Assembly: GCA_029204225.1 (NCBI GenBank)
Contig: CM055112.1
Coordinates: 21,642,578-21,706,577, forward strand
DNA: 64,000 nucleotides
Origin: Diphasiastrum complanatum
Taxonomy: Eukaryota > Streptophyta > Lycopodiopsida > Lycopodiales > Lycopodiaceae
Direction: 5' to 3'
A program made the position numbers and the translations under genes. Under the pieces are notes generated by a model. That model was not told where the DNA came from, did not search any database, and worked only from the letters and a program-made list of their open reading frames with translations. Shown one piece after another: positions 5,178 to 43,921 of this stretch. How positions within the stretch are numbered: position 1 is the first letter of the stretch; each line of letters opens with the position of its first letter.

Positions 5178-5189
5178 ATTGCTTTTGAG

Positions 5190-8235: not shown

Positions 8236-8286
8236 CTCTGTGATAAAATTCCAGCAAGTTCACATGCATGGGGAATGATCCTAAAG

Positions 8287-16364: not shown

Positions 16365-16370
16365 ATAATT

Positions 16371-21482: not shown

Positions 21483-21500
21483 ATAATTCTTTAGGAGGAG

Positions 21501-22238
21501 TGTGAAGAATTGAAAAAGATTATCTATGTTAGATATAGGGGTCTTATGTTTTTTACATCAAGCATCTAGGTGTAGGATGTTGATAGGAATAAATTTGGCA
21601 TAGATGGCAAAATTATGCATTTCCACTTGTAATGCCACTATTGAGCCAAAATAGAGTAAGAGGCTAAGCACTTGCTAATTAGAGTGTAGACAAGTGTAAA
21701 GTTTTTGTTTGATTAATTCCAAGGGGTCCAATAGGATATAGAGGTGGAACGTTGTGAGGTCCAATAAGAAATTGAGGTGTGCTTGAATATAGTCCAATAG
21801 AATTAAGAGGTGCATAGATCAATGATCCAATAGGACCAACAGATGACAAAATGTGGTCCAATCATAGTTAAGCATAGTGGTAGCTCGTGGACCTACTAGT
21901 ATCATTGTACTCCTCATTTTGATGTTAATTGATTTGGTGATTTCATGGATTTTGTGAGTTATTGGATTTCTAGCTTTCTCTCTCTACCCGAGAGCTCTTG
22001 ATGCATTTTCTCTCTCTACCCGAGGAGAGCAGCTTGTTTTTACTTAGATTATTTTTTGAATACTTCCCACACGTGTGAGTGAGAGTTGGAAGTGATTGAA
22101 TGCATGTAGTAGTGTGTTTTTGCCATAGGATTCAAGATTGATCTTGAATCTCAATCTAGTCTTGATCTTGGTGCATCTACACACCTTAGGAGATCACAAG
22201 TACATGTAGTGGACAGTCCACACGTGTGAAATTTAACA
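21501..22238 (+). repeat. LTR3 of element B, diverged
   Basis: Same length as LTR1 and LTR2 but with about 15 substitutions, the first at 21615 (A for G). Others fall in the words GCTAAGCACTTGCTAATTAG, GATTAATTCCAAGGGG, GACCAACAGATG and CAGCTTGTTTTTACTTAG. That is about 2% divergence from LTR1. Confidence 0.9.
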
Positions 22239-23542
22239 GTGAGTCTTAGTACTCGTGCTTTGTCTGGTTTGCATGATTGCTTGTGATACAAGGAGCTGAT
22301 GGCTCGAGAAGAAACCTTTTCTTTTGAAGGCTGATACCATCAAACAAAGAGAACTACAGAATCTGTGGGGCGGATTTGCATTTCAAGTACTCGCACGTGA
22401 ACGACAACGAAACGACTCAATGTTTGCAAAGGATGGATGGCTAGCCTGTTTCTTGGGTTAGTTTCATTTGCGACAACGCCCACCAGACGCAAGCAGGAAG
22501 TCAAAAGTTGGAAAGGGCAATTTCAGGGGAGATCTTCTATGGAGCAGTTGGTCTTCATTTTGGGACGGCCACCTTCGAAACTGAAACTCACTGAACATGG
22601 GTGATATCCAGTATCAGTTGGGTTTTTCGTCAAAGAGAAAAGACTAGGATCCTCTTCAGAGATTGGCAACAAGTTGGATCGAGCCATAATCCTAGCAGAT
22701 GGGAAGCAAAGTGTTGGAAAGGCTTTTTGTCCAAAGAACTCTACTCTAAGTCTGATCAGCTGATTTTATAAGTGGAGGGGAACTATCACACACACCTCTC
22801 TCTTGGGGCAAATTTTGAATGAAAGTTGACCAAAATGGGGGCAAGTTCAAGGTGACCTAGCCATACTCACACGAGGAGACTGGCGAACTTTGGACCTAAT
22901 AAGTTGACAAGTTTTTGTTGTGGAAAGGAAAGTTTGTTATAGGCTTTCTCTGGACCAGCAATGATGAGGAAACATATGAGTACGCTGGCTTGTGTTACGT
23001 GTAAGGCAGTTGATCAATGAAGGAACTGTGAAAGTTGAGTCTTGCATGAGAGACTTCGTATTTTGAACGGACGCTAAGGGACAGTTCGCGTTGAGATCGG
23101 ACTAGTGCAAACTCTGGGTCATGTGTCTGATTCAAAGAGAGGTACTTGAAGCCAAGCTCGATGTACACTTCTTGTTTTGACTGTGAGGCAACTGACCAGT
23201 GATGGAATTGTGAAAGTCAAGTTTTGCGCGACAGACATGGTGCTTCAAACAAACGCGAAGAGATAGTTCGGATGCGGATCAAACTGGTGCGACCCTTTGG
23301 CTTTCCACGAGGTCAATGGTTACATTTGGGCTGATTCAAAGAGCTACTTTAAGCTAAGTGAGAGGTGCATTGTGGAGTACTCAATCTTTGCCTACCTTAA
23401 AGAGCCAAGATGGAAAAGTATCAAGATCAGGCTGGGACAAGGAGAGAAATCAAGGTGCAGAAGCAACAAGGCACGGAGTGGACCATAAAGTGGGAAATCA
23501 AACGATAAATCCTTTGGCTCAAGGAGCCCTGATACCTGTGCG
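22239..23542. other. Gene-free stretch with a diverged direct repeat
   Basis: About 1.3 kb, richer in GC than its neighbours. Two related segments of about 115 bp start at 23005 and 23187: each has GGCA(A/G)(C/T)TGA followed by GGAA(C/T)TGTGAAAGT and a C-G-rich tail with GACAGTTCG or GATAGTTCG. No coding region is convincing. It may be an old non-coding part of a retroelement, but I do not recognise it. Confidence 0.4.
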
Positions 23543-24398
23543 GACAAAAAATATCCTTCGAAGGGGGGGGGGGGGAGAGGGAGGTGTTGGATTTATCTCC
23601 TCTACTCTCTTAAATCCTATGGTAATCTGCCTCCATTCATGTTGTTGCATTTTTACTCGTGTTGTCGCATAGTCTGCATATTTGAGCTGTCTATCGCTGT
23701 AGTCTGCATTTTTACTCGGGAATTTCCATAGGCGAAAAATGCGACACTGCATTTTTACATGCAATTTATGATAGGAAAAAATGCGACACTGGCCTACAAA
23801 TGTCGACGGTGCCCTTATAAAAAAACGAATATACCTTACAAATGATTTTCTAAGGCATTGGACAGAGTGTCGCAATTTTTGCATTTTCAGCAGCGTGAAT
23901 TTTAGCGAAGCCCGACATCGTGGCCTCCTCACGCTCATTCTATGCACTATGCAATCAGATTTGACAACAGCAGCAGCCACCCACGACCTCCCACAAAAAG
24001 CTCAACCACTTTTGTACCGTCTTCATCTGCACACCTGTAAAATTTATGTATATACTGGATACCATCTGAGTATTTACACAACAAAAGATAGAGAATGAAG
24101 CATGATTCGTAATTCAGAGGCAGACATTGTACATGCCTTCACGCATTGATTCTTTTTTCTAGATAGATTGTCTGTAATAGGTTCATAACCTTTACAAAAT
24201 TGTGATTAGCTTTGTGAAGCACATGGTTATGTCCGCTATTGTTTTGTGCTAACTTGCATTATTGACTCGTATATTTCGTTATACTTAATCTGATTACGGC
24301 TCTGTTTGGTTTTGCATTCAGATTTCTGTCAATACTGCAATGCTTTTCTACATTCTGTCTAGCTATCTAATTGCTTTGTCTGTCTGTTTGCTCTTCTG

Positions 24399-24522
24399 GA
24401 CTAATTATTTGTCTAGCTCTTCGCGACTAATTATTTGTCTAGCTCTTCTCGACTAATTATTTGTCTAGTGAGTCGCGACTAATTACTTGTCTAATGGTCC
24501 GCGACAAATTATTTGTCTGATG
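24399..24522 (+). repeat. Five 26-bp tandem repeats inside LTR of element C
   Basis: GACTAATTATTTGTCTAG plus a variable 8-base tail repeats at 24399, 24425, 24451, 24477 and 24503, an exact 26-bp period. The tails vary (CTCTTCGC, CTCTTCTC, TGAGTCGC, TGGTCCGC). They lie in the U3 part of the LTR, where repeated boxes often bind transcription factors. The mirror copy is at about 37995-38120. Confidence 0.8.
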
Positions 24523-24760
24523 TTTCGATGCTTAATGTTTGGCTACGTAATCACTATAGTACTAATGATTTTAGAGTCAGTTACTATAAGATCGAACGTG
24601 ATTTCTATCACTACTGTTTTTGTTTGAAATTGATAGGAGTAGTCATGCATGAAGAAAGAGGAAGATAGCTTATTCCGCTGCGCACGATAAGTTCTAATTC
24701 TTGTCGTTCAAATATTTTTCATTCGAGTTCGACCTATCTTTCACAGACCTCTTTCCAACA

Positions 24761-24772
24761 TGGTATCAGAGC
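24761..24772 (+). promoter_or_regulatory. Primer binding site of element C
   Basis: TGGTATCAGAGC directly after LTR end CCAACA; perfect initiator Met-tRNA site. Confidence 0.92.
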
Positions 24773-24935
24773 TATTTCTATAGCCTGATAAGCTTCCATA
24801 GAAAGAAGACTCTACTAGCCAATAGAGTATTCTTCTTGTTCTATAATTTAGCACTAGTACTTAAGTCACTGATAGTTACTCCTATCACCTAGACTAATCT
24901 TCCACATAGATTTCCAAGGGAAATCTAGTCCTATC

Positions 24936-25674
24936 ATGGACAAGCTTGATGAAGCTAATTATCATTTGTGGAAATTTAAGATGAGAACTGTGCCAATGGC
25001 TAAGGAGTTGTATGACATTGTTACAGGTGCAGAGGGGATACCCGAAGCTGACGATGCAACAATCTCCAGATGGAAGCTGAAGGATGGCACATCATGCGCT
25101 GATCATCCTCAACATTTCGGATACTCAGATCGGCCATGTGTTCGAAGCACAGACATCCAAATAAGTCTGGGACATCTTGAGCACATTATATGAAGTGCAA
25201 GATATAGCTTCTAAGCTACATTTCAGGAAGAAATTTTACTCCCTCAAGATGGCAAATGATGATTCCTTGCAGAATTACATCAACCAGTTACTGAAGCAAA
25301 TGGCCACTGTCGGATCTGTCATAGACGATCAAGACGCAGTAATGCAACTGCTTACAAGCTTGCCAAGCTCATACAACAGCTGGGTGATGATCATCACGAC
25401 GCATCCAGAGTTGACTCTTTCAAGAGTCATTGTAATGTTGTTGCAAGAAGACACGCGGAGGAATGAAGCCTCTAGTTTCTCAACTGATTCTCATGCCTTG
25501 TACACCAAAAAAGACATGACTAAGCAGAAGAAGAAGAAAGGGCCAAAACAATCAAAGCAAGACCATAAACCAACACAGCACAAAGACAAGTCAAATCTGC
25601 ATACTAAGAAGAAGTTGTTCTGCAGATACTGCAAGAGAAACAACCACGAGATTCAAGACTGCTGGATACTATAA
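24936..25674 (+). pseudogene. Copia gag of element C, left arm
   Basis: Gag with NYHLWKFKMR near the start, RKKFYSLKM and LLTSLPSSYNSWV in the middle, a lysine-rich tail and the zinc knuckle CRYCKRNNHEIQDC. One frameshift lies near 25090, and a TAA interrupts the frame near 25170 (in ATCCAAATAAGTCTGG). Relative to the right-arm copy it lacks three residues (one 9-bp deletion after 25290). No pol follows. Confidence 0.8.
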
Positions 25675-25976
25675 GGAAACAACTCACGAAATTTGTCGCA
25701 AACAATTCGCGAAAGACGAAAATGTCTCGATACTTAATGTTTGGCTATGTAATCACTGTAGTACTAATGATATCAAAGTTAGTTACTATAAGATAGAACG
25801 TGATTTCTATCACTTGTTTTTGTTCGAAGTTGATAGGCATAGTCATGCACGAAGAAAGAGGAAGATAGCTTATTCCGCTGCGCATGATAAGTTCTAATTT
25901 TTGTCATTTAAATATTTTTCATTCGAGTTTGTTTCTTTTTGAGTTTCACCTATCTTTCGCACACCTCTTTCCAACA

Positions 25977-26167
25977 GGGGGGGTCCCTATCTTGACCCCT
26001 CAATGCTTCCGCTGTATGTGAATGAATTTATGTGTTCCTTTTTTTTCGAATTTTGAAGTAAAATTTAATTTCATTTAAGTTGATTCAAGACTTGTATTAT
26101 GTGATTGATAAATCAATAGGCCTATTGGCCTTTAAGATTTTAGGAGAGACTTTCCCTTCGAGTTCAC
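25977..26167. other. Insertion site sequence of element C
   Basis: Poly-G and the words CTTGACCCCTCA and GTGAATGAATTTATGTG. The paralogous sequence is at 42918-43060 (reverse orientation), where it continues without element C. No gene. Confidence 0.6.
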
Positions 26168-28566
26168 ACATTGGTGCACTATATTTGTGATATCTTGCAA
26201 TCTTGTGTGTAGAATGCTCATTTTATGTTATTTTCAGATCCACACGTGCAAAATACAATAGCTTACTATTTTTGTACATGTATCAACTTCATCATATCAT
26301 AAGTTTGATGTTTGATCAGGTTCTTATTGAGTTTGCATCTCTTTCATTGAGTATATGTTGATTTTTCTACATTGGCAACATTGGTAGGATTGATTTCTTT
26401 CTAACCAAAGATCAAGTTATGGATTTGGATAATGATCTGAAATTCTTCACATGGTATCAAAGCTTGTGTTGTAGGTTATGAAAGGATCAGCCACATTAAT
26501 CAAGGATTTGGAGGAGATATCAATGCTAGAGTATGCTAGATTGACTTCCACTCAAAAATTGAGTTTTTTGCATATGTAGAAGATCAAGGGGAGACTTCTT
26601 CAAATGGCAAAAAGAAAGATAGGTCAAAGATAAAGTGTTTCTATTGTGGCATCAAAGGATACTTTGCAAGTGAGTGCTACAAGAAGAAGAGAGGTCAATC
26701 TTACTCATGATGAAGATGTTGTGGACGTTCAAAACTCAATGATGATGCTTTTGTGATGTCTTCATGTATGCTTGCTAATGATGAATATCTAGATTCATGG
26801 TGGATTGATAGTGGTGCAAGCTCACACATGACTTTTCACAAAGAGTACTTCACTTCTTTGTTAGCATATGGAGATGACAAGAAGGTGATCTACACAACCA
26901 ATGATGGTCAGTGTGCAATCAAAGGGATTGGCACAACTCCTATTTCTCTCTCTACAAATAGGACTGTTCACTTGAAGGATGTTTTGTTCATACCTTCCAT
27001 TACCAAGAGTTTACTTAGTGTGAGTCAATTGATAAGTAAGGGTTTCAAAGTTGAGTTTGATGGAGGTTCTTGCATGATCAAAAGGAAGGATGGCTTGATT
27101 GCAAAAGGTAAAAGGCAAGAGAAGTTGTCAAAACTAGATGCTTGTGTTATTGCTAACCAAGTTGGATGCGTGGCAAGTGAGCAAATACCTATTCAAGAGA
27201 TTTGGCATAAAAGGATGGGGCACCTCAACTTGAAGTCATTGGAGGTAATGGCTAAGAATTAAGTTGTGATTGGTCTTCCAAGATACCTAACTAGCATCAA
27301 TCGTGCTTGTGAGACTTGTGCTTTGTCAAAGTCACATAGACTATTGTATACTAGATCTATCGTAGCCTTTTCAAGTTGTACATTCGAATATTCATGGAAT
27401 TACTACAATTAGCAATAGTGGAGCTAAGATGTATGTAACTTTCATTGATGATTTTAGTAGATTTTGTTGGATCTATCTACTTAAGAGCAAAGATGAAGTG
27501 TATGATGTCTTTGTGAAGTTCAAGAATGCAAGGTAGAGCCAATTTTCTACAAGGATCAAATGCGTGAGGAGTGACAATCGTGGTGAGTATATCTCAACCA
27601 AGTTTAAGGCCTTTTGTGATGAGGATGGGATCAAGAGGGAGTACACATCTTCAAGGACACCCACAATAAAATGGAGTGGACGAGAGGAAGAATAGAACTT
27701 TATGTGAAAGTGCCAAAGCCATGAGGTTAGGTGCTAATCTCCCAAAACCATTTTGGGATCAAGCTTTGTTGTGTGCTAACTTTCTATGCAATAGGTGGCC
27801 GAGTGCTATATTGAATGGAAGAACACCTTTTGAGATGCTATTCAAGAGGAGGCCGAGTATCAAATTTCTAAAACTTTTGGATGTACTTGCTATGTCAATA
27901 TAATTCTTGATGATAGGACAAAGGAGGATTCATCTTCAAGAAAAGGTATATTTGTTGGATATAGTGAGGTGAGTAAAGCCTACAAGGTTAACATTCCTAC
28001 TACTAATAAGGTGATTGTTGGTAGCGATGTCATTTTTGCTAAGGGAGATATTCCAAAGGTGTCTTCAAGTAATGATGTTGTGGATGGATCTAGTATTCTT
28101 GATGGTGATGACATGGATCCTACTTTAGAAGGTGATGATGAAGGACCTTCATCAAGTCAAAAGCCAAGGAGAACATCAAGGCAAAAACTAACACCTTCAA
28201 GGCTCACATATGATGAGAAAGGTTAGAAAGTTGTTGGAGGTACACACTTTGATTTTCTAACCTCTTTTGATGAACCTACTTGTGTAGATGAAGCAAGGGA
28301 CAAAGATGAGTGGATCCAAGCAATGGATATTGAGTATCAAGCTCTCTTGAAGAATGATACATGGAGATTGGTTGAGTTACCTAAGGACAAGAAAGCTATT
28401 GGATGTAAATGGAACTTCAAGGTGAAGACAAACCAAGATGGATCTATCAATAATCAGATGGCAAGGTTGGTGGCAAAAGGATATGCTCAAGAACATGGTA
28501 TTGACTATGATGAAACCTTTGCACCCATGGCAAAGATGGTAAGCATTCGGGTCATCATCTCTCTTG
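26168..28566 (+). pseudogene. Decayed copia element D, left arm
   Basis: LTR end of the element A family (ATTGGTGCACTATATTTG onward, to about 26450), primer site TGGTATCAAAGC (26452-26463, one mismatch), then a gag tail with zinc knuckle CFYCGIKGYFASEC, in which Tyr replaces the His. Protease WWIDSGASSHMT is intact. Integrase has HKRMGHLN, CETCALSKSH, FIDDFSRF, CVRSDNRGEY and ERKNRTLCE but is broken by several stops and shifts. The linker SKAYKVNIPTTNKVIVGSD follows. A TAG at 28224-28226 is specific to this arm. RT begins (GCKWNFKVKTNQDG, YDETFAPMAKM) and is cut at about 28566 by the junction with the DUF7869 sequence. Confidence 0.85.
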
Positions 28567-29319
28567 AAATAGTTTGCCCCATGATAATAGAATGCCTAAT
28601 TTATTACATTTGATTTTAAACTGGTGTTGAAAGCTAATATCATTAATATTAGCTATGCATCGCTCTGTTTCGTTGGATGCCTTAACATAATCACGAAAAT
28701 CATATGTGTGTCTGATTAGTGACATGTTTGGCTTTGGCACATATGATTCTTCAACAGTGCTTTGAAACATTGGTAAAGAAAATGCTTTCTTGCGTCTCAA
28801 CCTCTTAGAAAAGCAACTACACATTTGATCAATTTGATCGTGGATATGTCCTACCAACAAAAATCCTATTTTTACTTTTTTGAAAATTGTTTTATTCACT
28901 AGCATGGACAAGTATGCCAAAACAGTTTGGTTTTTATTTTCCCTAGCAGTGTTGTCAAGATGCAAATAAAATATTTCTGGAAGATTTTCACCAAATTCGC
29001 AAATTATCTTACGTACAATGGTGATCATCAAATTTGGATCATTTCGAACATTGGGATAATTAAAAAAGACCTTGGACTCCAAAGTGCCATTAAACACAAG
29101 TGCTCCAACGAGATGAACTTGAATAAAATCTGCCTCGTTCAAATTTTTGGGCACTCTAACAAAATGAGGCAACATTGTTTTCTTCTGATCCATGCCATCA
29201 ATAACAAGGCCCAGATATTTTTGTGGACATTCCAAACATTTCTTTCGATGCTTGGCCAACTTTTGTCTTTCAATTGTTTGTTGGTCTCTGTGCAGTTGAA
29301 GAGCTTTTGCAGCATCCAT
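28555..29319 (-). CDS. DUF7869-type protein, left-arm copy
   Basis: 254-residue open frame, unbroken, with an ATG start preceded by a TGA in frame seven codons upstream. It matches the uncharacterised eukaryotic family DUF7869 as I know it: LVIDGMDQ (Asp41), LPHFVRVPK, YLHLDNTARENKN (Asp122), then FLLVGHIHDQID (His158, Asp164). The family often sits in transposon-rich DNA and the spaced acidic/His motifs resemble an RNase-H-fold nuclease, but its reaction is not established. The C-terminus is truncated: the last few residues come from the abutting copia D sequence. It is identical in all 254 residues to the right-arm copy. Whether it is expressed is unknown. Confidence 0.65.
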   Translation of the reverse strand: MDAAKALQLHRDQQTIERQKLAKHRKKCLECPQKYLGLVIDGMDQKKTMLPHFVRVPKNLNEADFIQVHLVGALVFNGTLESKVFFNYPNVRNDPNLMITIVRKIICEFGENLPEIFYLHLDNTARENKNQTVLAYLSMLVNKTIFKKVKIGFLLVGHIHDQIDQMCSCFSKRLRRKKAFSLPMFQSTVEESYVPKPNMSLIRHTYDFRDYVKASNETERCIANINDISFQHQFKIKCNKLGILLSWGKLFQER

Positions 29320-29364
29320 TGAAAATACAATGATTCACTTATTTAATAGAATAAAGATCATATC

Positions 29365-30008
29365 TGTAGGCTGATATTCCAAGGAATATTCTAGCCATCC
29401 TACGGAACATCTTAAAAAATACAAGCAGGATAGGATTTAAATGTAGAACTTGCCCAACAAGTTTAGGCTTTTACAGTATCCGTACTGGCTTAAGTTATTA
29501 AGTTTTAAGTTTAAATTGCCATAGGCACTGCACATAGATATGTAATTTCAGGTTAAGTAAAAGTTAGTCACAAAGGCCTATTGGGGGTTTGTCCCATGGC
29601 ACCAGTGTGATTCAAAGTTAAGTTAGTCTATGTGGCTTACTTGTCCCACAGTGCATTTTTGGAAGTGACCACCACTCCAAGTATAAATAGGAGTGGAAGA
29701 GTCCATTTTCGAGAAAAACCTCATTTGCAATACATGCTTATCTTTCTCTCTGAGTGTTCTCCCTTGTGTGGTTTCATGTACTGTGTTACTTCACATTGTA
29801 TTGTACTGTATTGATTTTGCAACAAGTTAAGTTAATACAGGTCCTCCATTCTCTAGTAGGGTAAGCCTTAGAGGAGGAGATTTGGTTTAGGGTTTTACCT
29901 TTAAGGTTAAGCCGTCATTTGTTAGAAACTAAGGAGAGAAAAGAGAGAAGAGTGGATCTTACCCATCAAGAATACTCACCACTATGCTCATGACTGTCTT
30001 TCTTGCAT
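29365..30008 (+). mobile_element. Truncated gypsy-like LTR, left arm
   Basis: Begins TGTAGGCTGATATTCC, has a TATAAAT box (29682-29688) followed about 60 bp later by CTTTCTCTCTGAGTG and TTCTCCCTTGTGTGG, as expected for U3-R-U5 order. The copy stops at the inner edge of the inverted repeat, about 104 bp short of the LTR end seen in the right arm. Confidence 0.6.
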
Positions 30009-30515
30009 AGATTCATCATGATAGGATTGTCGGCGATGGAAGATGGATATGTACAATTCTAGGTGCAACGTGTATCTGCAAGAGCTTGGAGTTTCCTAAG
30101 TGGAACCATATGATGTTGATCTTAGAGGATTTTACTAAGTTTCAAGTGCTTGAAATTATGGGTCTTTGTTGTGATCACAAATGAACCTCTCTGGATATAA
30201 TTTGCATGCATGCCTGGGACTCGCACAAGTCAAGATCTTGCCAAAAAATAGGCTATGCGAGTACTAGATAGTTCTGTTTTAGGAGAGATCAAAGATTTTG
30301 CACTTGAAAGTATTTCTACAAGTTTGTTCAAGGTTTTCTTACCTTATTTGGGAGTTTTTTTTTTTTTTTTTCAATGTACTCACCTCCTCTCGGATTCTTG
30401 TAGCTGACAAAAGTCGTTGCAAAAATCAGGAAATGACTCGTATAGTTGTGCGAGTTATTTCGGACCTAGTCAACTCAAATGGACCACAGAGCAAAAAAAT
30501 TACTAGGGACTCGTA

Positions 30516-30915
30516 CAAAAAATGACTCGTGGACGGAAACGGACGACTCGCACAAAAGATGACTAGCGCAAAAAAATAAAAAAATAAAAAAAATAAATAT
30601 ATGTGGACGGAGACGGACGACTCGCACAGAAGATGACTCGTGCAAAAAAATGACTCGTGGACGGAAACAGACGACTCGCACAGAAGATGACTCGCGCAAA
30701 AAAATGACTCGTAGATGACTCGTATAGAAGATGACTCGCAGATGACTCGTGCAAGGGTGGGAGATGACTCGTACTCACAGATGACTAGTGCAGAAGATGA
30801 CTCGCAGATGACTCGTATAAAAGATGACTCGTGCAAAAAAATGACTCGTGGATGGAAACGGACGACTCACATAGGACTTGCACAGAAGATGACTCGCGTA
30901 AAAAAATGACTCATG
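30516..30915 (+). repeat. TGACTCG-rich minisatellite
   Basis: An irregular unit of about 54 bp built from GGACGGAAACGGACGACTCG, CACAGAAGATGACTCG and CGCAAAAAAATGACTCG. TGACTCG or close variants occurs well over a dozen times; TGACTC is the half-site core bound by many bZIP factors. Some units are internally rearranged. Confidence 0.75.
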
Positions 30916-31319
30916 GACGCTTGCACGTGGGAGCTGGCGTACTTGCAGGTGACTCAGAAGGTGACAAAAGAACTGTAAATGGCTATGAACACTAATGAAA
31001 AACGTGTAGTGAAAATCAGCCAGAAACCCACTCAAAATGACTGAAAAAATGGTTGAATTATAGATGGCAAACACCGCTAAAATCTGAAAAACAGTAAGAA
31101 AATCTTGAAAAATCGCTGAAGTCGAAAAATAGCCGAAAAAAACGTGAAACAGGTCTGAAAAATGTTTGAAAAACGCTGAAAAACAGTTGAGGTACTTAAG
31201 AAAAACAAAAAATGTTTTGCTACCAGCTGTAGCTACAGCAGCCCACTCCCTGCACCCTGCTCCTTCAGCCTTCTGAAAAATAGCAGATAAAAATGCTCAA
31301 AAAACGAGACTCATAAACG

Positions 31320-31900
31320 AGGTGTATGCACAAAAAGGAGGGCGTCTAATGGGCGATGGAAGTCACGCTGGTCTGATGGACGGTCTGACTGACGCTGGAG
31401 GTCATGCTGATCTGATGGATGATCTGATGGATGCTGGAGGTCTGATAGCCCACCGTTCGTTGTGTGAGAAGATAGCTCGCTGCTCGTTGTGTGAGAAACC
31501 AGGCTCAGAAACGTTCTATAGAGAACCGAGGCTCAGAAACAGGGTGTATGCACAAAAAGGAGGATGTCTGATGGGCGCTGGAGGTCGTGTTGAGGGCGCA
31601 GCTGTCTGAATTAGGTGAAAGGCGGTCTGATGGGTACTGGAGGTCGTTCTTGAGGGCGCAACTGTCTGAATCAGGTGAACGCAGGTAGCTCAGAGGTGCG
31701 CAGGCAGCTCCAAATCAATTGCAGCTCGGAGGGAGGTGAAACGTAGCTCCAAAACGAGATGGTGGCTCCAAAACGCAGCTCTGAATGGTGAAAACGAGAT
31801 GTAGGTTCGATGGTGGGCTGGCTCAAACTCTGAATGGTGAAAACGAGACGTAGGTGCGATGGTGGGCTGGCTCAAACAGTGCGATGTCTGATCTACCGGG
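31320..31900 (+). repeat. Complex repeat block in the spacer
   Basis: GTGTATGCACAAAAAGGAGG occurs twice (about 31321 and 31544), variants of GGCGCTGGAGGTCGT several times, and a segment of about 50 bp around CTCTGAATGGTGAAAACGAG twice in tandem (about 31778 and 31829). No coding function is supported. Confidence 0.6.
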
Positions 31901-32388
31901 TTGCTGGAACTTCAATGGACATGAAAGAGTAGCCCGTAAACAGATGAACATTTTCAGAGGAGTGACTTCTCAAAACGCGGCTGATAGCGTCTGTCTCGGG
32001 GGACATTTCTACAATAGATAACATATTCTGCTAGCAAGCAGCAAGCCATCCATTCTGCTGCACTAGATTTCTAGAGCAGTTCGAACTTTGAAGATCTATC
32101 TATCCGTGGCACGAATCATGGCACTCCCTTTGAAACCTGAGAAGCTAAGGATGGCCCTAAACCCTAGCAAAGATACTAACCAACAAGAAAAATGGTAAAA
32201 GAACCCGCAAAAAACAAAGATCATGAGAACAACAAGCAAAAAGGATGTTAAAAACAAGTAAGAAGAAGGCACAAAGGATGCGAAAAAAAATAAGCAAGAA
32301 CTAAAAAGATTAGCTAGAAACGTAGAACAAACAAAAACAAATGAAGAGGAGCTAGAAACGTAGAGAGAGCGAGAAAAAGAGCGGCAAC

Positions 32389-32395
32389 GGCGCCA
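32389..32395 (-). promoter_or_regulatory. Gypsy-type primer site after the LTR
   Basis: On the minus strand TGGCGCC follows the LTR end CCAACA and continues GTTGCCG. TGGCGCCGTTGCCG is a common start of the internal region in plant Ty3/gypsy elements of the Tat/Athila type. Confidence 0.6.
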
Positions 32396-33143
32396 TGTTG
32401 GATCTTCGGCATCCACACCGGCTATGGCTCCAACTAGCTTGACTATGGCAGTCTCCCAACTAGTCTACGCTATGGCTTCTCCAACTAGCTTGGATATGGA
32501 TGCAAGAAAGACAGTCATGAGCATAGTGGTGAGTATTCTTGATGGGTAAGATCCACTCTTCTCTCTTTTCTCTCCTTAGTTTCTAACAAATGACGGCTTA
32601 ACCTTAAAGGTAAAACCCTAAACCAAATCTCCTCCTCTAAGGCTTACCCTACTAGAGAATGGACGACCTGTATTAACTTAACTTGTTGCAAAATCAATAC
32701 AGTACAATACAATGTGAAGTAACACAGTACATGAAACCACACAAGGGAGAACACTCAGAGAGAAAGATAAGCATGTATTGCAAATGAGGTTTTTCTCGAA
32801 AATGGACTCTTCCACTCCTATTTATACTTGGAGTGGTGGTCACTTCCAAAAATGCACTGTGGGACAAGTAAGCCACATAGACTAACTTAACTTTGAATCA
32901 CACTGGTGCCATGGGACAAACCCCCAATAGGCCTTTGTGACTAACTTTTACTTAACCTGAAATTACATATCTATGTGCAGTGCCTATGGCAATTTAAACT
33001 TAAAACTTAATAACTTAAGCCAGTACGGATACTGTAAAAGCCTAAACTTGTTGGGCAAGTTCTACATTTAAATCCTATCCTGCTTGTATTTTTTAAGATG
33101 TTCCGTAGGATGGCTAGAATATTCCTTGGAATATCAGCCTACA
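32396..33143 (-). mobile_element. Gypsy-like LTR, right arm, complete
   Basis: About 748 bp from TGTAGGCTG (33143) to CCAACA (32396), with the same TATA box as the left-arm copy. The last 104 bp (32396-32499) lie outside the inverted repeat and contain short repeats of CCAACTAGCTTG-like words. Being complete and joined to its leader, this copy looks like the original one. Confidence 0.6.
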
Positions 33144-33188
33144 GATATGATCTTTATTCTATTAAATAAGTGAATCATTGTATTTTCA

Positions 33189-33953
33189 ATGGATGCTGCA
33201 AAAGCTCTTCAACTGCACAGAGACCAACAAACAATTGAAAGACAAAAGTTGGCCAAGCATCGAAAGAAATGTTTGGAATGTCCACAAAAATATCTGGGCC
33301 TTGTTATTGATGGCATGGATCAGAAGAAAACAATGTTGCCTCATTTTGTTAGAGTGCCCAAAAATTTGAACGAGGCAGATTTTATTCAAGTTCATCTCGT
33401 TGGAGCACTTGTGTTTAATGGCACTTTGGAGTCCAAGGTCTTTTTTAATTATCCCAATGTTCGAAATGATCCAAATTTGATGATCACCATTGTACGTAAG
33501 ATAATTTGCGAATTTGGTGAAAATCTTCCAGAAATATTTTATTTGCATCTTGACAACACTGCTAGGGAAAATAAAAACCAAACTGTTTTGGCATACTTGT
33601 CCATGCTAGTGAATAAAACAATTTTCAAAAAAGTAAAAATAGGATTTTTGTTGGTAGGACATATCCACGATCAAATTGATCAAATGTGTAGTTGCTTTTC
33701 TAAGAGGTTGAGACGCAAGAAAGCATTTTCTTTACCAATGTTTCAAAGCACTGTTGAAGAATCATATGTGCCAAAGCCAAACATGTCACTAATCAGACAC
33801 ACATATGATTTTCGTGATTATGTTAAGGCATCCAACGAAACAGAGCGATGCATAGCTAATATTAATGATATTAGCTTTCAACACCAGTTTAAAATCAAAT
33901 GTAATAAATTAGGCATTCTATTATCATGGGGCAAACTATTTCAAGAGAGATGA
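33189..33953 (+). CDS. DUF7869-type protein, right-arm copy
   Basis: Second 254-residue copy, with no amino-acid change from the left-arm ORF. The motifs are the same: LVIDGMDQ at 38-45, LHLDNTARENKN at 119-130 and GHIHDQID at 157-164. It starts about 45 bp from the gypsy-like LTR start and transcribes away from it, so an LTR-driven antisense or read-out promoter is conceivable. The C-terminal end runs into copia D sequence as in the other arm. The 5' flank has no TATA box that I can support. Confidence 0.65.
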   Translation: MDAAKALQLHRDQQTIERQKLAKHRKKCLECPQKYLGLVIDGMDQKKTMLPHFVRVPKNLNEADFIQVHLVGALVFNGTLESKVFFNYPNVRNDPNLMITIVRKIICEFGENLPEIFYLHLDNTARENKNQTVLAYLSMLVNKTIFKKVKIGFLLVGHIHDQIDQMCSCFSKRLRRKKAFSLPMFQSTVEESYVPKPNMSLIRHTYDFRDYVKASNETERCIANINDISFQHQFKIKCNKLGILLSWGKLFQER

Positions 33954-36345
33954 TGACCCGAATGCTTACCATCTTTGCCATGGGTGCAAAGGTTTCATCA
34001 TAGTCAATACCATGTTCTTGAGCATATCCTTTTGCCACCAACCTTGCCATCTGATTATTGATAGATCCATCTTGGTTTGTCTTCACCTTGAAGTTCCATT
34101 TACATCCAATAGCTTTCTTGTCCTTAGGTAACTCAACCAATCTCCATGTATCATTCTTCAAGAGAGCTTGATACTCAATATCCATTGCTTGGATCCACTC
34201 ATCTTTGTCCCTTGCTTCATCTACACAAGTAGGTTCATCAAAAGAGGTTAGAAAATCAAAGTGTGTACCTCCAACAACTTTCTTACCTTTCTCATCATAT
34301 GTGAGCCTTGAAGGTGTTAGTTTTTGCCTTGATGTTCTCCTTGGCTTTTGACTTGATGAAGGTCCTTCATCATCACCTTCTAAAGTAGGATCCATGTCAT
34401 CACCATCAAGAATACTAGATCCATCCACAACATCATTACTTGAAGACACCTTTGGAATATTTCCCTTAGCAAAAATGACATCGCTACCAACAATCACCTT
34501 ATTAGTAGTAGGAATGTTAACCTTGTAGGCTTTACTCACCTCACTATATCCAACAAATATACCTTTTCTTGAAGATGAATCCTCCTTTGTCCTATCATCA
34601 AGAATTATATTGACATAGCAAGTACATCCAAAAGTTTTAGAAATTTGATACTTGGCCTCCTCTTGAATAGCATCTCAAAAGGTGTTCTTCCATTCAATAT
34701 AGCACTCGGCCACCTATTGCATAGAAAGTTAGCACACAACAAAGCTTGATCCCAAAATGGTTTTGGGAGATTAGCACCTAACCTCATGGCTTTGGCACTT
34801 TCACATAAAGTTCTATTCTTCCTCTCGTCCACTCCATTTTATTGTGGGTGTCCTTGGAGATTTGTACTCCCACTTGATCCCATCCTCATCACAAAAGGCC
34901 TTAAACTTGGTTGAGATATACTCACCACGATTGTCACTCCTTACGCATTTGATCCTTGTAAAAAATTGGCTCTACCTTGCATTCTTGAACTTCACAAAGA
35001 CATCATACACTTCATCTTTGCTCTTAAGTAGATAGATCCAACAAAATCTACTAAAATCATCAATGAAAGTTACATACATCTTAGCTCCACTATTGCTAAT
35101 TGTAGTAATTCCATGAATATTCGAATGTACAACTTGAAAAGGCTACGATAGATCTAGTATACAATAGTCTATGTGACTTTGACAAAGCACAAGTCTCACA
35201 AGCACGATTGATGCTAGTTAGGTATCTTGGAAGACCAATCACAACTTACTTCTTAGCCATTACCTCCAATGACTTCAAGTTGAGGTGCCCCATCCTTTTA
35301 TGCCAAATCTCTTGAATAGGTATTTGCTCACTTGCCACGCATCCAACTTGGTTAGCAATAACACAAGCATCTAGTTTTGACAACTTCTCTTGCCTTTTAC
35401 CTTTTGCAATCAAGCCAGCCTTCCTTTTGATCATGCAAGAACCTCCATCAAACTCAACTTTGAAACCCTTACTTATCAATTGACTCACACTAAGTAAACT
35501 CTTGGTAATGGAAGGTATGAACAAAACATCCTTCAAGTGAACAGTCCTATTTGTAGAGAGAGAAATAGGAATTGTGCCAATCCCTTTGATTGCACACTGA
35601 CCATCATTGGTTGTGTAGATCACCTTCTTGTCATCTCCATATGCTAACAAAGAAGTGAAGTACTCTTTGTGAAAAGTCATGTGTGAGCTTGCACCACTAT
35701 CAATCCACCATGAATCTAGATATCCATCATTAGCAAGCATACATGAAGACATCACAAAAGCATCATCATTGAGTTTTGAACGTCCACAACATCTTCATCA
35801 TGAGTAAGATTGATCTCTCTTCTTCTTGTAGCACTCACTTGCAAAGTATCCTTTGATGCCACAATAGAAACACTTTATCTTTGACCTATCTTTCTTTTTG
35901 CCATTTGAAGAAGTCTCCCCTTGATCTTCTACATATGCAAAAAACTCGATTTTTGAGTGGAAGTCAATCTAGCATACTCTAGCATTGATATCTCCTCCAA
36001 ATCCTTGATTAATGTGGCTGATCCTTTCATAACCTACAACACAAGCTTTGATACCATGTGAAGAATTTCAGATCATTATCCAAATCCATAACTTGATCTT
36101 TGGTTAGAAAGAAATCAATCCTACCAATGTTGCCAATGTAGAAAAATCAACATATACTCAATGAAAGAGATGCAAACTCAATAAGAACCTGATCAAACAT
36201 CAAACTTATGATATGATGAAGTTGATACATGTACAAAAATAGTAAGCTATTGTATTTTGCACGTGTGGATCTGAAAATAACATAAAATGAGCATTCTACA
36301 CACAAGATTGCAAGATATCACAAATATAGTGCACCAATGTGTGAA
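33895..36345 (-). pseudogene. Decayed copia element D, right arm
   Basis: Minus-strand twin of the left-arm pseudogene. Linker and RT start form one open frame of 214 residues (33895-34539) because Lys replaces the left-arm TAG. Protease to integrase start is open at 35246-35755. Arm-specific residues include Gly for Glu in NDGYLD, Ile for Thr in GTIPIS and Ala for Asp in KRKAGL. Integrase is still broken in the middle, so it is not functional. Confidence 0.85.
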
Positions 36346-36531
36346 CTCGAAGGGAAAGTCTCTCCTAAAATCTTAAAGTCCAATAGGCCTATTGATTTAT
36401 CAATCACATAATACAAGTCTTGAATCAACTTAAATGAAATTAAATTTTACTTCAAAATTCGAAAAAAACGGAACACATAAATTCATTCACATACAGTGGA
36501 AGCACTGAGGGGTCAAGATAGGGACCCCCCC

Positions 36532-38941
36532 TGTTGGAAAGAGGTGTGCGAAAGATAGGTGAAACTAAAAAAGAAACAAACTCTAATGAAAAATATTTGA
36601 ATGACAAAAATTAGAACTTATCATGCGCAGCGGAATAAGCTATCTTCCTCTTTCTTCGTGCATGACTATGCCTATCAACTTCGAACAAAAACAAGTGATA
36701 GAAATCACGTTCTATCTTATAGTAACTAACTTTGATATCATTAGTACTACAGTGATTACATAGCCAAACATTAAGTATCGAGACATTTTTGTCTTTCGCG
36801 AATTGTTTGCGACAAATTTCGTGAGTTGTTTCCTTATAGTATCCGGCAGTCTTGAATCTCGTGGTTGTTTCTCTTGCAGTATCTACAGAACAACTTCTTC
36901 TTAGTATGCAGATTTGACTTGTCTTTGTGCTGTGTTGGTTTATGGTCTTGCTTTGATTGTTTTGGCCCTTTCTTCTTCTTCTGCTTAGTCATGTCTTTTT
37001 TGGTGTACAAGGCATGAGAATCAGTTGAGAAACTAGAGGCTTCATTCCTCCGCGTGTCTTCTTGCAACAACATTACAATGACTCTTGAAAGAGTCAACTC
37101 TGGATGCGTCGTGATGATCATCACCCAGCTGTTGTATGAGCTTGGCAAGCTTGTAAGCAGTTGCATTACTGCGTCTTGATCGTCTATGACAGATCCGACA
37201 GTGGCCATTTGCTTCAGTAGGTTCTTGAACTGGTTGATGTAATTCTGCAAGGAATCATCATTTGCCATCTTGAGGGAGTAAAATTTCTTCCTGAAATGTA
37301 GCTTAGAACCTATATCTTGCACTTCATATAATGTGCTCAAGATGTCCCAGACTTATTTGGATGTCTGAGCTTCGAACACATGGCCGATCTGAGTATCCGA
37401 AATGTTGAGGATGATCAGCGCATGATGTGCCATCCTTCAGCTTCCATCTGGAGATTGTTGCATCGTCAGCTTCGGGTATCCCCTCTACACCTGTAACAAT
37501 GTCATACAACTCCTTAGCCATTGGCACAGTTCTCATCTTAAATTTCCACAAATGATAATTAGCTTCATCAAGCTTGTCCATGATAGGACTAGATTTCCCT
37601 TGGAAATCTATGTGGAAGATTAGTCTAGGTGATAGGAGTAACTATCAGTGACTTAAGTACTAGTGCTAAATTATAGAACAAGAAGAATACTCTATTGGCT
37701 AGTAGAGTCTTCTTTCTATGGAAGCTTATCAGGCTATAGAAATAGCTCTGATACCATGTTGGAAAGAGGTCTGTGAAAGATAGGTCGAACTCGAATGAAA
37801 AATATTTGAACGACAAGAATTAGAACTTATCGTGCGCAGCGGAATAAGTTATCTTCCTCTTTCTTCATGCATGACTACTCCTATCAATTTCAAACAAAAA
37901 CAGTAGTGATAGAAATCACGTTCGATCTTATAGTAACTGACTCTAAAATCATTAGTACTATAGTGATTACGTAGCCAAACATTAAGCATCGAAACATCAG
38001 ACAAATAATTTGTCGCGGACCATTAGACAAGTAATTAGTCGCGACTCACTAGACAGATAATTAGTCGAGAAGAGCTAGACAAATAATTAGTCGCGAAGAG
38101 CTAGACAAATAATTAGTCCAGAAGAGCAAACAGACAGACAAAGCAATTAGATAGCTAGACAGAATGTAGAAAAGCATTGCAGTATTGACAGAAATCTGAA
38201 TGCAAAACCAAACAGAGCCGTAATCAAATTAAGTATAACGAAATATACGAGTCAATAATGCAAGTTAGCACAAAACAATAGCGGACATAACCATGTGCTT
38301 CACAAAGCTAATCACAATTTTGTAAAGGTTATGAACCTATTACAGACAATCTATCTAGAAAAAAGAATCAATGCGTGAAGGCATCTACAATGTCTGCCTC
38401 TGAATTACGAATCATGCTTCATTCTCTATCTTTTGTTGTGTAAATACTCAGATGGTATCCAGTATATACATAAATTTTACAGGTGTGCAGATGAAGACGG
38501 TACAAAAGTGGTTGAGCTTTTTGTGGGAGGTCGTGGGTGGCTGCTGCTGTTGTCAAATCTGATTGCATAGTGCATAGAATGAGCGTGAGGAGGCCACGAT
38601 GTCGGGCTTCGCTAAAATTCACGCTGCTGAAAATGCAAAAATTGCGACACTCTGTCCAATGCCTTAGAAAATCATTTGTAAGGTATATTCGTTTTTTTAT
38701 AAGGGCACCGTCGACATTTGTAGGCCAGTGTCGCATTTTTTCCTATCATAAATTGCATGTAAAAATGCAGTGTCGCATTTTTCGCATTTTTCGCCTATGG
38801 AAATTCCCGAGTAAAAATGCAGACTACAGCGACAGACAGCTCAAATATGCAGACTATGCGACAACACGAGTAAAAATGCAACAACATGAATGGAGGCAGA
38901 TTACCATAGGATTTAAGAGAGTAGAGGAGATAAATCCAACA
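36532..38941 (-). mobile_element. Element C: gag-only copia derivative, right arm
   Basis: 5' LTR 38941-37757 (1185 bp), primer site 37756-37745, gag pseudogene 37581-36834 with zinc knuckle CRYCKRNNHEIQDC, and truncated 3' LTR ending at 36532. It has the same frameshift and TAA as the left copy but keeps the three residues (FKN) deleted there. Flanking C-runs mark the insertion point. Confidence 0.82.
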
Positions 38942-39134
38942 CCTCCCTCTCCCCCCCCCCCCCCCCCCCCCCTTCGAAGGATATTTTTTGTCTGGCCTAT
39001 GCCAATTACATATACAATGGATTCCAATAGGGGTCTCAAAAATAGGAACATCAATTTACTTCCTTTCAATGGTCTTAGTTCCATATCTAGCTTATCATAA
39101 GCATAGAAATTTTTTCATAAATCCTAATTCTTCC

Positions 39135-39506
39135 GACATGCAATCATGATAGATCTTAAATACTTGACATGCAATCATGATGGATCTTAGATACATGACA
39201 TGCAATGATGATGGATCATTTATTCTTGACATGAAATCATGATGGATCATAGATTCTTAACATGCTATCATGATGGATCATAGATTCTTGACATGCAATC
39301 ATGATCGATCATAGATTCTTGACATGCAATCATGATAGATCATTTATTCTTGACATGCAATCATGATGGATCATAGATTCTTGAAATGCAATCATGATGG
39401 ATCATAGATTCTTGACATGCAATCATGATGGATATTAGATACTTGACATGCAATCATGATAGATCATAGATTCTTGACATGCAATCATGATGGATCTTAG
39501 CTACTT
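39135..39506 (+). repeat. 31-bp tandem array, 12 units
   Basis: Twelve units of exactly 31 bp, consensus start GACATGCAATCATGATGGAT then a CATAGATTCTT or CTTAGATACTT end. Each unit contains the palindrome ATCATGAT. Two alternating end types suggest an older dimeric unit. Confidence 0.92.
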
Positions 39507-39525
39507 GACATGCAATCGTCTGAAC

Positions 39526-39840
39526 TGACATGCATGGACATTAGGCAAAGCATGGCATGACATGCAAGAGTCTAAACACATGCATGGTCATTAGGCAAAG
39601 GATGGCATGACATGCAAGAGTCTAAACTAACATGCATGGTCATTAGATGATGGATGGCATGACATGCAAGAGTCTATCTAAACTAGCATGCATGGTCATT
39701 AGATGATGGATGGCATGACATGCAAGAGTCTAAACTGACATGCATGATCATTAGGCAATGGATGGCATGACATGCAAGAGTCTAAACTGACATGCGTGGT
39801 CATAGGATATAGTTTCTTATGACATGCATATGGTTCTAAA
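39526..39840 (+). repeat. 52-bp tandem array
   Basis: Five to six units around GACATGCATGGTCATTAGGC and ATGACATGCAAGAGTCTAAA, with small indels between units. It follows the 31-bp array directly. Confidence 0.8.
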
Positions 39841-41036
39841 CAACCATTCATACATATGCACATCAGATTCATGAACGTACCATGGTTTCAAAAGAGGATG
39901 AAAGTGAGAGAGAGTGTGTGTGTGAGAGAGAGAGACTGTGAAAGAGAGTGAGAGATCCAAGAGGGTTTGAGCTTCAAAATCCTCCAATCCACAATTGAGC
40001 ATAGCCTCCTTGAGCCAATGCTTCCATCTTCTGCTCCCAAGCACTTGTACACAAGAACAAACAAGAGGGAAGAGCCTGGATGCAAAATCATTCAATCCCA
40101 TTGGTAGAGGGGCGCATTTCCACTTATATAAAAAGTGGAGAGTCATTCCAAACTGAGTGAGGTGTCAAGTTCAAGTGCATGAGATGTGGGGAAGACTCCA
40201 ATTGGACTTAAGATAAAGTGGAGTGCATGGATGAGGTGTATTAGTAATTAGAGAGGTTGAATGGGTGAGGTGTATTAGCTTGGGAGAGTTATTATGATGA
40301 TTTGGCATAGGAAGTGAGAGTGAAGGAGGGTGCCCCATTCTAGGTGTCGAATAGCCTAGAATGCATGTAGCAAAGTAGGTGGGAGGTAGGTGGCACATGG
40401 TTTAAACTTCACTTTATTTTTCATATAGTTTTTTTCATTGTCACAACTTGGGAATTCACCCAAGTACAATCTTCCTAGTGAAAAGGCCAAAGTATATGCC
40501 CATCTTGTTTTGCATAATAGTCATCTAAGCCCTTTTTTCTAGAGGTTGCCCATCCTCAATTATGGTCATTGGCACTTTTTTCTAGAGGTTTCTCATCCTC
40601 AATCATGGTGGACAAGGATCAATAGGGTGATCAGACCCTTGGCCTTGTCCCATTCTTTATAGACTCCTCTGAGCCTTCATTATAGACTTAGAAATAAGCC
40701 TTCCGTATAGACTCCTATGAGCCTTTGTTATAGACTTAGATAAGTCTTCTTCTTGTAAACAGTCTTTAGCTTTGAAAGCTTCTTCTTCCCGTTCTGGTCC
40801 TTCAAGCACTTTCATGAGTACCTGCACACACCTTCAAAGTAAGTTCAGTTTCCATACCATCAGATATGGCTTACAATAGGTTCTTAGTTCTACAGGTATA
40901 ATACCTGTAGAAAAATTCAATCAATATCCAAAAAGAATAATGGTCATTGGTAGTTTCATGTCATCAAAGTCTATATGGAATTTGAAGCTGGGAAAGTCTT
41001 TATTACTTTGGGGCGATTTGTCTCTACAGATTACAC

Positions 41037-42917
41037 GCCTCCAATGCATAAAGTGTTGTCCTCGACGAATATTTCTCAAATAAAAGTCTTAAATCTTTGG
41101 ATATCCTTTGAAGGAGTGTTTTTTCATTCATCTTGCATCCATAGTCGGATGATTCTTAAAGTTGCGAAGATATAGTTTTTATGCTAATCTCTTTCTTTTA
41201 GATCTAATCTTATACATTAAGATCTGCTTTGATTGAAGAATTTGAATCTATCTAGGATAGTCCAAAATATTTCATTTCATTCTTGGTCTTAGGTATTCTA
41301 GAAGCAAAATCCACAACAAAATGTTTCTTTGGGGATTCAGGAATGGGTAAAGTTTGAAGTGGTCTTAGAGTTTTCAATCCTGGTTCATCCTTAGTATGTT
41401 AGCATACTAAATATGAGTTTACGTAATGTTTGATATGTGTGTGGTAGGCCAATAGAAAAATCTCTTTTTAGCTTCAAGAAAGTTGAAAGTATTTATGTAT
41501 GTTCATCATTCGATTGAATGTGGCGGAAGTGTGGATAAAACTGAAGGGAACCATTAGAAACTCATATAGGCTAGAGTTAGTTCTGGTGGCTGTTTTAATG
41601 GACATCTTCAGACACTACTCAAATATGGTGGTTTTCTTTTCTAGCACTTGCTTATAGGAAAGTGCCAACCTCTTAGATTACTTTTCAATGTGAAATTACT
41701 GTACTTTAGGACCATAAATGGATCTACAAAAGATCCACAAGAGTGATTGGATGCTTGCTTAACAATCTATCAAAAAACTAGACACAAAAAAGTTGATCTA
41801 GATTGGCAATTTAACAAACAACAAGCATTAACAATCAAAATCATTGATAAACATTGAAATCCGAGCCCACACGTGTGTACTACAGGCTGTAGTACGGCCT
41901 TCAACCTGAGAAACAAGTAGAAATTGATTTGGTTTCATTTGGATCACAAAAACTCAATGTACATAGTGAACTAGCTTGAGATTGCCAATGAGCTCCAAAA
42001 ATTTTCTATCTTCTCACTATGGAGAGAGGGAATACATACCAAATTCGACTTCCTTCTTGAAGTTAGGTGGATTTCCAGCATGTAATAAGGAAGTTAACTC
42101 ACTCTCCTTGACCTAAAATGAAACCCTAGTCTATTTCCTAGAGTTATGCTTGTTAGGTAGCTAGTTGGTCAAATTTTCACCTTAAACTTAGGTGTAGGTC
42201 CTATAAAGTAGGGATGACCACCAAATAGACATGACCAACTCTCTTGACTTGACCTAACCTACATTAGGATGGGTTTTCCATGTGGCATCATGGCCTCACA
42301 TGTGCGGGACCCACTTGTGTACACAATTTGCACTATTCTACATGGTTTTTTATCAAGCTAGGTTTGCCAATTTTTGGCAATTCTTCACATTCAAGAGTGA
42401 TCAACTCAATCTTTATTTTCCTTTATGGATCTAAATCCATATCATGAGATAAGACATTTTCAAAATTATACCAAATTTCATCTACTTAACTTATTCATGT
42501 CATGCAAAAGTTCACTTTTATGTATTCAAGTCAAACAAATCTTGATACAATTCTTTCATATTGACAATTCTATTTCATCTTGCTTTTCAAAGCATTCCTA
42601 GATCTTCATTTAGAACAATCCTTTGATTCTAACTAACAATCAGTGTGATTATGAAAAAACTCCTCTTGTTTTACTCGTATGGCCTTCAAAGATTTAATGG
42701 CATTGACTAGTTTTGGGTTGCATGTTCTTGATATGCGTGACCTTCTAGTTCTCCGCAAGTAGGCATCCAGTGTTCGGTGTCTCAGGTTCTACGTCATGCC
42801 GAGCAGGAGTCTTTATCTTATTAATTCTTTCCATGCAGTACTTGCTTCTTGAAGCAAAAGGCCTCTTAAACAACGGATGGAGCTTTATGTTCTTCTGCAT
42901 GCATGAACATACAAGGT
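41037..42917. other. Gene-free DNA with a possible minus-strand LTR remnant
   Basis: No coding region is convincing. On the minus strand a word TGTGAAGAATTG at 42390, identical to the start of the element B LTRs, and CACACGTGTG near 41870 hint at a diverged LTR between about 42390 and 41800. No primer site or second LTR was found, so this is tentative. Confidence 0.35.
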
Positions 42918-43239
42918 CTTTATCATTCACATAATACAAGTCTTGAATCAACTTAAATGAAACAAATTTGACTTCAAAACTCGAAAACAAAGGATCACAT
43001 GAATTCATTCACATACAACGGAAGGACTAAGGCGTCAAGATGAGGACACAACCCCCCCCCCCCCGAAGGATATTTCTTGTCATTATGCAAAACCAATTGG
43101 CCTATGCCAATTACATATACAATGGATTCCAATAGGGGTCTCAAAAATAGGAACATCAACTTACTTCCTTTCAATGGTGTTAGTTCCATATCTAACTTAT
43201 CATAAGCATAGAAATTTCTTCATAAATCTTAATTATTTC

Positions 43240-43580
43240 GATATGCAATCATGAAGGATCTTAGATACTTGACATGTAGTCATGATGGATCATTTATTTT
43301 TGACATGCAATCATGATGAATCATAGATTCTTGACATGCAATCATGGTGGATCTTAGATACTTGACATGCAATCATGATGATTCATAGATTCTTGACATA
43401 CAATCATGATGGATCATTTATTCTTGACATGCAATCATGATGGATCATAGATTTTTTATATGCAATCATGATGGATCATAGATTCTTGACATGCAATCAT
43501 GATGGATCTTAGATACTTGACATGCAATCATGATGGATCATAGATTCTTGACATGCACTCATGATGGATCTTAGATACTT
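43240..43580 (+). repeat. 31-bp tandem array, 11 units
   Basis: Eleven 31-bp units (341 bp), homologous to the array at 39135. One unit fewer than copy 1. Confidence 0.9.
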
Positions 43581-43599
43581 GACATGCAATCGTCTGAAC

Positions 43600-43790
43600 T
43601 GACATGCATGGACATTAGGGAAAGGATGGCATGACATGCAAGAGTCTTAACTGACATGCATGGTCATTAGGCAATAAATGGCATGAGATGCAAGAGTCTA
43701 AACTGACATGCATGGTCATTAGGCAATGGATGACATGACATGCAAGAGTCTAAACTGACATGCATGGTCATAGGATATGGTTTCTTATGA
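43600..43790 (+). repeat. 52-bp tandem array, second copy
   Basis: About three to four units of the same 52-bp family as at 39526. Confidence 0.75.
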
Positions 43791-43872
43791 CATGCATATG
43801 GTTCTAAACAACCATTCATACATATGCACATCAGATTCATGAACGTACCATGGTTTCAAAAGAGGATAAAAG

Positions 43873-43921
43873 TGAGAGTGTGTGTGTGTGTGTGTGTCTG
43901 TGTGTGTGTTTGTGTGTGTGA
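43873..43921. repeat. (TG)n tract
   Basis: Interrupted TG repeat. At the equivalent place in copy 1 (near 39905) the tract is mixed AG/TG and shorter. Confidence 0.75.

Follow-up and report, generated by a model that had tools for sequence, protein, structure and literature searches.

In maize, the Mu killer locus offers an example of a plant inverted duplication of transposon sequence carrying two terminal promoter regions. As described for this locus, the duplicated part of a DNA transposon gene measures about 1.3 kb, and the target of silencing is MuDR (PMC3440606). Palindromes are also found on the W chromosome of Salix purpurea, in the sex-determining region. Their gene-containing arms measure about 20 kb or more, are on average more than 99% alike and are separated by a spacer of a few kb; evidence for arm-to-arm conversion has been presented in this system (PMC7023750). 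With respect to the possible origins of such structures, inverted triplications have been discussed in terms of MMBIR/FoSTeS and ODIRA, models in which opposed copies have breakpoints unrelated to element borders (PMC4689423).

The locus considered here lies in a stretch of 64,000 nucleotides of Diphasiastrum complanatum DNA, hereafter called the window, and consists of two opposed arms around a spacer. It resembles Mu killer by the inverted duplication of transposon sequence and by its two putative terminal promoter regions, but its arms are 6.5-kb copia mosaics that are not known to be active. As in S. purpurea, the arms are more than 99% alike and the spacer measures a few kb, whereas the size is about one third of that of the W palindromes and the content is retroelement debris. 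Finally, opposed copies and breakpoints unrelated to element borders recall the products of the replication-based models, but this single case has two arms instead of three, no microhomology at the outer edges and no short inverted repeat at the spacer ends. Overall, the structure looks like retrotransposon debris that was recently duplicated on the spot in inverted orientation, a type of event that is already known. It would provide a clear single example of broken retrotransposons copied in reverse in plant genomes.

Geometry and content of the arms

Comparison of the window with itself using BLASTN aligned positions 23543-30008 with the reverse of positions 38992-32500, over 6493 columns, with 99.076% identity, 33 mismatches and 3 gap openings. 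The assembled sequence does contain the palindrome. The arms, junctions and outer edges had been delimited exactly in the first-pass annotation, and the self-comparison that it recommended does recover both arms. Arm A (23543-30008, forward strand), the presumed copy, has a left flank unlike the outer flank of arm B. Arm B (32500-38992, reverse strand), the presumed resident copy, runs on at its outer edge into an element that we call E1. The 2491-bp spacer (30009-32499) contains short internal tandem repeats. When 22239-46000 was compared with the window by BLASTN (E ≤ 1e-3, rows of at least 40 bp kept), the spacer matched only itself, and no Pfam match was found in its five ORFs of at least 90 amino acids. 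The next longest inverted pair in the self-comparison, 391-1986 with 6388-4832, is only 83.6% alike, so that a match of the arms by chance is out of the question. Near-identical opposed arms flank a spacer, as in segmental palindromes, and the breakpoints lie away from transposon ends, the outer edges being outside the LTR start and the inner edges in non-copia sequence.

In a global alignment, the arms differ by 33 substitutions (20 transitions and 13 transversions) over 6466 aligned columns, and by three indels. Each indel is of 9 bp and arm B is always the longer. The first one corresponds to a G run (13 in arm A and 22 in arm B), the second to a repeated 9-mer within the LTR, and the third to three codons within gag. 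Exact runs of at least 100 bp make up 88% of the alignment, the longest reaching 1619 bp, and 88.3% of the 24-mers of arm A are found exactly in arm B.

Both arms are mosaics in which Ty1/copia debris is joined to an antisense DUF7869 gene fragment. The copia parts comprise a polypurine tract, an LTR, a primer-binding site, gag, a protease/integrase region and a truncated reverse transcriptase (RT). Arm A begins with a 20-bp tail (23543-23562) belonging to the 3′ internal end of a retroelement. A polypurine-tract-like G-rich run, 13 G then purines, follows just before the LTR (23563-23584, forward strand); in arm B, the corresponding run has 22 G then purines (38942-38972, reverse strand). The LTR of arm A (23585-24760, forward strand, 1176 bp, TGTTGGA...TCCAACA) faces the spacer and has a TATA-like stretch at 23816. 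That of arm B (37757-38941, reverse strand, 1185 bp) also faces the spacer and has the counterpart TATA-like stretch. Directly 3′ of the LTR of arm A is the primer-binding-site-like sequence TGGTATCAGAGC (24761-24772, forward strand), which we take to be of the initiator-Met tRNA type; arm B also has a primer-binding-site-like sequence (37745-37756, reverse strand).

Pieces of copia gag follow, at 24936-25674 on the forward strand in arm A, from the first ATG (Retrotran_gag_2, E 2.3e-19 on 25165-25674), and at 36834-37581 on the reverse strand in arm B (Retrotran_gag_2, E 9.5e-23 on 36834-37352). Inside gag, arm A carries a second copy of the 3′ part of the LTR, 85% alike (25722-25979), then a piece resembling 43047-42919 (25983-26112) and another resembling 8722-9147 (26169-26580). 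The protease/integrase/RT region, with Pol_BBD, SH3_retrovirus and RVT_2 matches, occupies 26714-28566 on the forward strand in arm A, as several broken ORFs, and 33942-35794 on the reverse strand in arm B; RT is truncated in both. The integrase core is visible only as nucleotide homology at 27434-27795, and the one frame tried across it has 18 stops. The Pfam match to RVT_2 covers positions 1-73 of 244 only in either arm, and nucleotide homology to the other copia pol sequences of the window stops at 28566. Thus, the arms have the Ty1/copia hallmarks, with gag, the integrase side before RT, a TG...CA LTR, and sequences resembling a primer-binding site and a polypurine tract. In contrast with a complete copia element, each arm has one full LTR, an RT cut after 73 of the 244 profile positions and extra fragments inside gag. 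Since the inner junctions of the mosaic are common to both arms, they predate the duplication.

At about 28566, the truncated RT is fused to the DUF7869 segment. The corresponding ORF (254 amino acids; 28555-29319, reverse strand, in arm A) matches PF25273 with E 3.7e-47, over profile positions 1-178 of 192. The arm B copy (33189-33953, forward strand, 254 amino acids) is identical. The end of the ORF runs into the copia junction. As its final codons are on the copia side of this junction, the ORF is a fragment by structure. No nucleotide copy of it was found by BLASTN in the window outside both arms, and nothing was seen in the window to show that the arm unit moved as a whole. Searches for relatives of the ORF gave no pattern match in viral_contigs, and 17 stretches fitting a pattern in genome_contigs, of which none was confirmed; for the copia SH3/RT piece, three stretches fitted a pattern in viral_contigs, again with none confirmed. 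PDB sequences gave no match to the ORF at E up to 5, its single-sequence AlphaFold2 model had a mean pLDDT of 32.3, and a literature search on DUF7869 found no paper. The earlier suggestion that the palindrome is a vehicle amplifying this ORF finds no support in a fragment fused to a truncated RT and having no further copy in the window. The ORF would rather be a passenger fragment.

Edges, differences between arms and origin of the second arm

The two outer edges do not have the same history. They are located 42 bp (arm A, the 20-bp tail and the polypurine run together) and 51 bp (arm B) outside the LTR start. Arm B is continuous with E1 (38993-41036, reverse strand), the 3′ internal part of an element, as seen by BLASTN and by alignment with a relative, E2 (43052-45045, reverse strand; 87% alike over 39220-41036). 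E2 passes through the equivalent of the arm B edge into the same 18-bp motif, with one mismatch, and then into a G run. As E2 is related to the locus on either side of the equivalent point, the outer flank of arm B represents the older order, and comparison with E2 indicates that, at this outer edge, arm B is the resident copy. The outer edge of arm A abuts unrelated DNA (22239-23542), and this junction is, on the same comparison, the new one. The outer flanks of the two arms share 0 bp at the edge. Beyond E2's G run, the sequence differs from the arm LTR. Over 38961-45045, the related E1 and E2 pieces, of 2 kb, contain 31-bp and 52-bp tandem arrays in different copy numbers.

In the E1/E2 alignment, E1 is without 16 bp present in E2, exactly at 38992/38993. 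Nine other indels occur within 38993-41036, giving 14 edges in 2044 positions; by our own count, the chance of an exact coincidence of an indel with the arm edge is about 0.7% if edges fall evenly. The 16-bp gap is suggestive, and reads as the scar of a break where copying of arm B ended. It could instead correspond to a gain in E2, just E1 and E2 being compared. The 22-G run lies 20 bp inside the outer edge of arm B and may have stalled replication. The 16 bp by which E1 and E2 differ at the donor edge, next to this run, would hint at where copying stopped.

The differences between arms are unevenly distributed. The few indels noted in the first-pass annotation are indeed there, but the substitutions that it called scattered are not evenly so: 32 of the 33 are at or before arm A position 28224 and the last one is at 29844, with no arm difference over the 1619 bp in between. 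A spacing of at least 1620 columns without substitution has P = 0.0025 (33 random differences, 20,000 permutations). If the arm is split at the copia/DUF7869 junction, 1 substitution is found in the inner 1442 bp versus 32 in the 5024 outside (hypergeometric P = 0.0025). These two values concern a pattern that was noticed before being tested. Selection on the DUF7869 ORF could explain the ORF's share of the inner identity. In the non-coding inner 689 bp, the outer rate predicts about 4 differences and 1 is observed, a tendency in the same direction that is weak alone. The simplest reading that fits the inner identity, with one genome compared, would be arm-to-arm gene conversion near the centre. 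Recombination between the arms may also flip the spacer.

Fifteen of the 33 substitutions could be compared with a paralogue in the window. Twelve were polarised and three were uninformative. Three polarised sites are derived in arm A and nine in arm B, three of the 12 resting on an alignment with 66% identity. We considered error-prone copying that would have loaded arm A with mutations, but the 3 versus 9 distribution points the other way.

The divergence of the arms is 33/6466, or 0.51%. Using the rice retrotransposon rate of 1.3e-8, the duplication would be about 0.2 million years old. Using the poplar rate of 2.5e-9 per site and year, as quoted in the study of Salix palindromes (PMC7023750), it would date back about 1 million years. 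Both figures would be too young if arm-to-arm conversion acted.

Considering these data, we favour, as the probable though by no means assured origin, replication-based repair that duplicated nested retrotransposon debris locally in inverted orientation, followed later by conversion of the inner part. The common internal mosaic, with the LTR 3′ fragment in gag and the RT/DUF7869 fusion, indicates that the arms derive from one duplication, not from two insertions. In the proposed mechanism, a break or a stalled fork would occur at the outer edge of arm B. The nascent strand coming from the spacer side would fold back or switch template into arm B, and would copy it outward until it stopped where the template was broken. 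The new arm A end would then be joined to the left flank, and the break in arm B would heal with the loss of 16 bp. Later, arm-to-arm gene conversion would keep the inner 1.6 kb identical. The view of the first-pass annotation that the duplication is recent and is not a retroelement product is borne out by the common mosaic junctions, by the lack of any arm edge at an LTR border and by the absence of a target-site duplication beyond the 3-bp TGG flanking arm B. Its proposal of fold-back or template switching is, by inference, the best fit. A template switch at the outer edge has no microhomology in its favour, the flanks sharing 0 bp. No short inverted repeat marks the turn, since the longest inverted match between the 200-bp ends of the spacer is 6 bp, shuffles averaging 7.4. 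A 9-bp inverted match links the left 200 bp of the spacer with the inner 200 bp of arm B and may be fortuitous. We also considered that the left flank and the spacer were once contiguous. Their GC contents are close (0.449 versus 0.439), but their 3-mer distance (0.243) is no smaller than for several other stretches, and no BLAST match was better than E 0.5.

A first alternative is that the second arm was made by an assembly or read artefact, either through a read folded back on itself or through two copies or haplotypes joined in error. Between the arms there are 33 substitutions and three indels, all of 9 bp and none of 1-2 bp, whereas typical long-read consensus error is expected to show 1-2 bp indels. 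Moreover, the outer flanks differ, which is not expected of a folded read, since such a read carries its own sequence twice. These two observations bear on a folded read, not on a false join. The assembly also separates the 5118-bp units of a tandem repeat that have only two differences, a sign of accurate long reads, although this repeat could be doubted as well. Fold-back artefacts do exist in long reads, one example read having about 2 kb between its mapped segments, but virtually none occurred in the PacBio HiFi sample of the same report (PMC12870357). Amplified DNA, for its part, gives many palindromic reads (PMC6218980). Altogether, we consider an artefact unlikely, and less likely than a real duplication.

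A break-fusion event or an extrachromosomal inverted dimer, as in ODIRA, would also give inverted arms around a centre, from a larger palindrome later trimmed at the centre and at the edges. Such a route is discussed alongside MMBIR/FoSTeS, but ODIRA, as presented there, begins at short interrupted inverted repeats and its product is an inverted triplication (PMC4689423). Here, the window contains two copies only, and the spacer ends lack short inverted repeats, with no inverted match above 6 bp between its 200-bp ends. We find this origin rather improbable. Lastly, two independent opposed insertions of the same chimeric retroelement are very hard to believe, even though the arms are largely copia, other copia elements crowd the window and a 3-bp direct repeat, TGG, flanks arm B on both sides, because arm A starts 42 bp before the LTR and shows, at its other end, no similarity to copia sequence of the window, each arm has one full LTR, and no target-site duplication or other direct repeat surrounds arm A, nor is there a target-site duplication around the whole palindrome.

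Possible transcripts of the palindrome and other features of the window

In vivo, a cruciform is unlikely when the spacer is as long as 2.49 kb, and the cruciform envisaged in the first-pass annotation is not expected here. The RNA level calls for a separate discussion, as a hairpin RNA would be a consequence of the structure, compatible with other origins. Both LTRs, each with its TATA-like stretch, face the spacer. A transcript starting from either predicted LTR promoter would cross one arm, the spacer and then the other arm in antisense. Since the LTRs point inward, long hairpins might be formed from read-through transcripts, and the high proportion of 24-mers of arm A found exactly in arm B would favour pairing. 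It may be imagined that the inward LTR promoters produce a hairpin RNA and then small RNAs directed against the copia family, in a manner akin to Mu killer, a partial inverted transposon duplication proposed to act via a hairpin RNA (PMC3440606). However, the LTRs of the arms may be silent. In addition, as reported for the plants in which Mu killer silences, two short antisense transcripts are found and a long hairpin is only a possible minor part (PMC3440606). We regard such a locus as improbable. Should the palindrome be transcribed, it would parallel Mu killer, but with a retrotransposon that brings its own promoters. A bolder version, which we hold to be a little less probable still, would make the palindrome a natural hairpin locus against the copia family, with a duplex of up to about 6 kb giving small RNAs that silence the family, and with conversion near the turn keeping the pairing. 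Within the duplication that we favour, any hairpin RNA would be a by-product.

Several other features were observed in the window. Pfam searches found many Ty1/copia pieces across it. Positions 11259-22238 hold a tandem copia arrangement, LTR-int-LTR-int-LTR, in which the two units of 5118 bp show 2 differences. There is 1 difference between LTR1 and LTR2, and there are 16 in 744 between LTR2 and LTR3. This organization fits either a very recent unequal LTR recombination in an older insertion or an assembly duplication. Regarding base composition, the observed/expected CpG ratio is 0.98 in the arm LTR (23585-24760), and 0.91 without its 26-bp repeats, so that CpG is hardly depleted in this LTR. 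Elsewhere it is depleted, with ratios of 0.32 in the internal region of the arm, 0.13 in E1, 0.09 in E2 and 0.16 in the tandem copia.

The 83.6% inverted pair (391-1986 and 4832-6388) carries two cupin ORFs on opposite strands, at 712-1536 and 5362-6066, the latter having been searched as 5377-6069. Both are presumably germin-like. A match to the eukaryotic 18S rRNA family at 7821-8402 reaches both ends of the model in only 582 bp, and would thus be a degenerate 18S piece with a large internal loss. Finally, direct repeats are present in 61589-63617; they align over 197 and 513 columns, are 87-91% alike and lie at a distance of about 1.2-1.3 kb.
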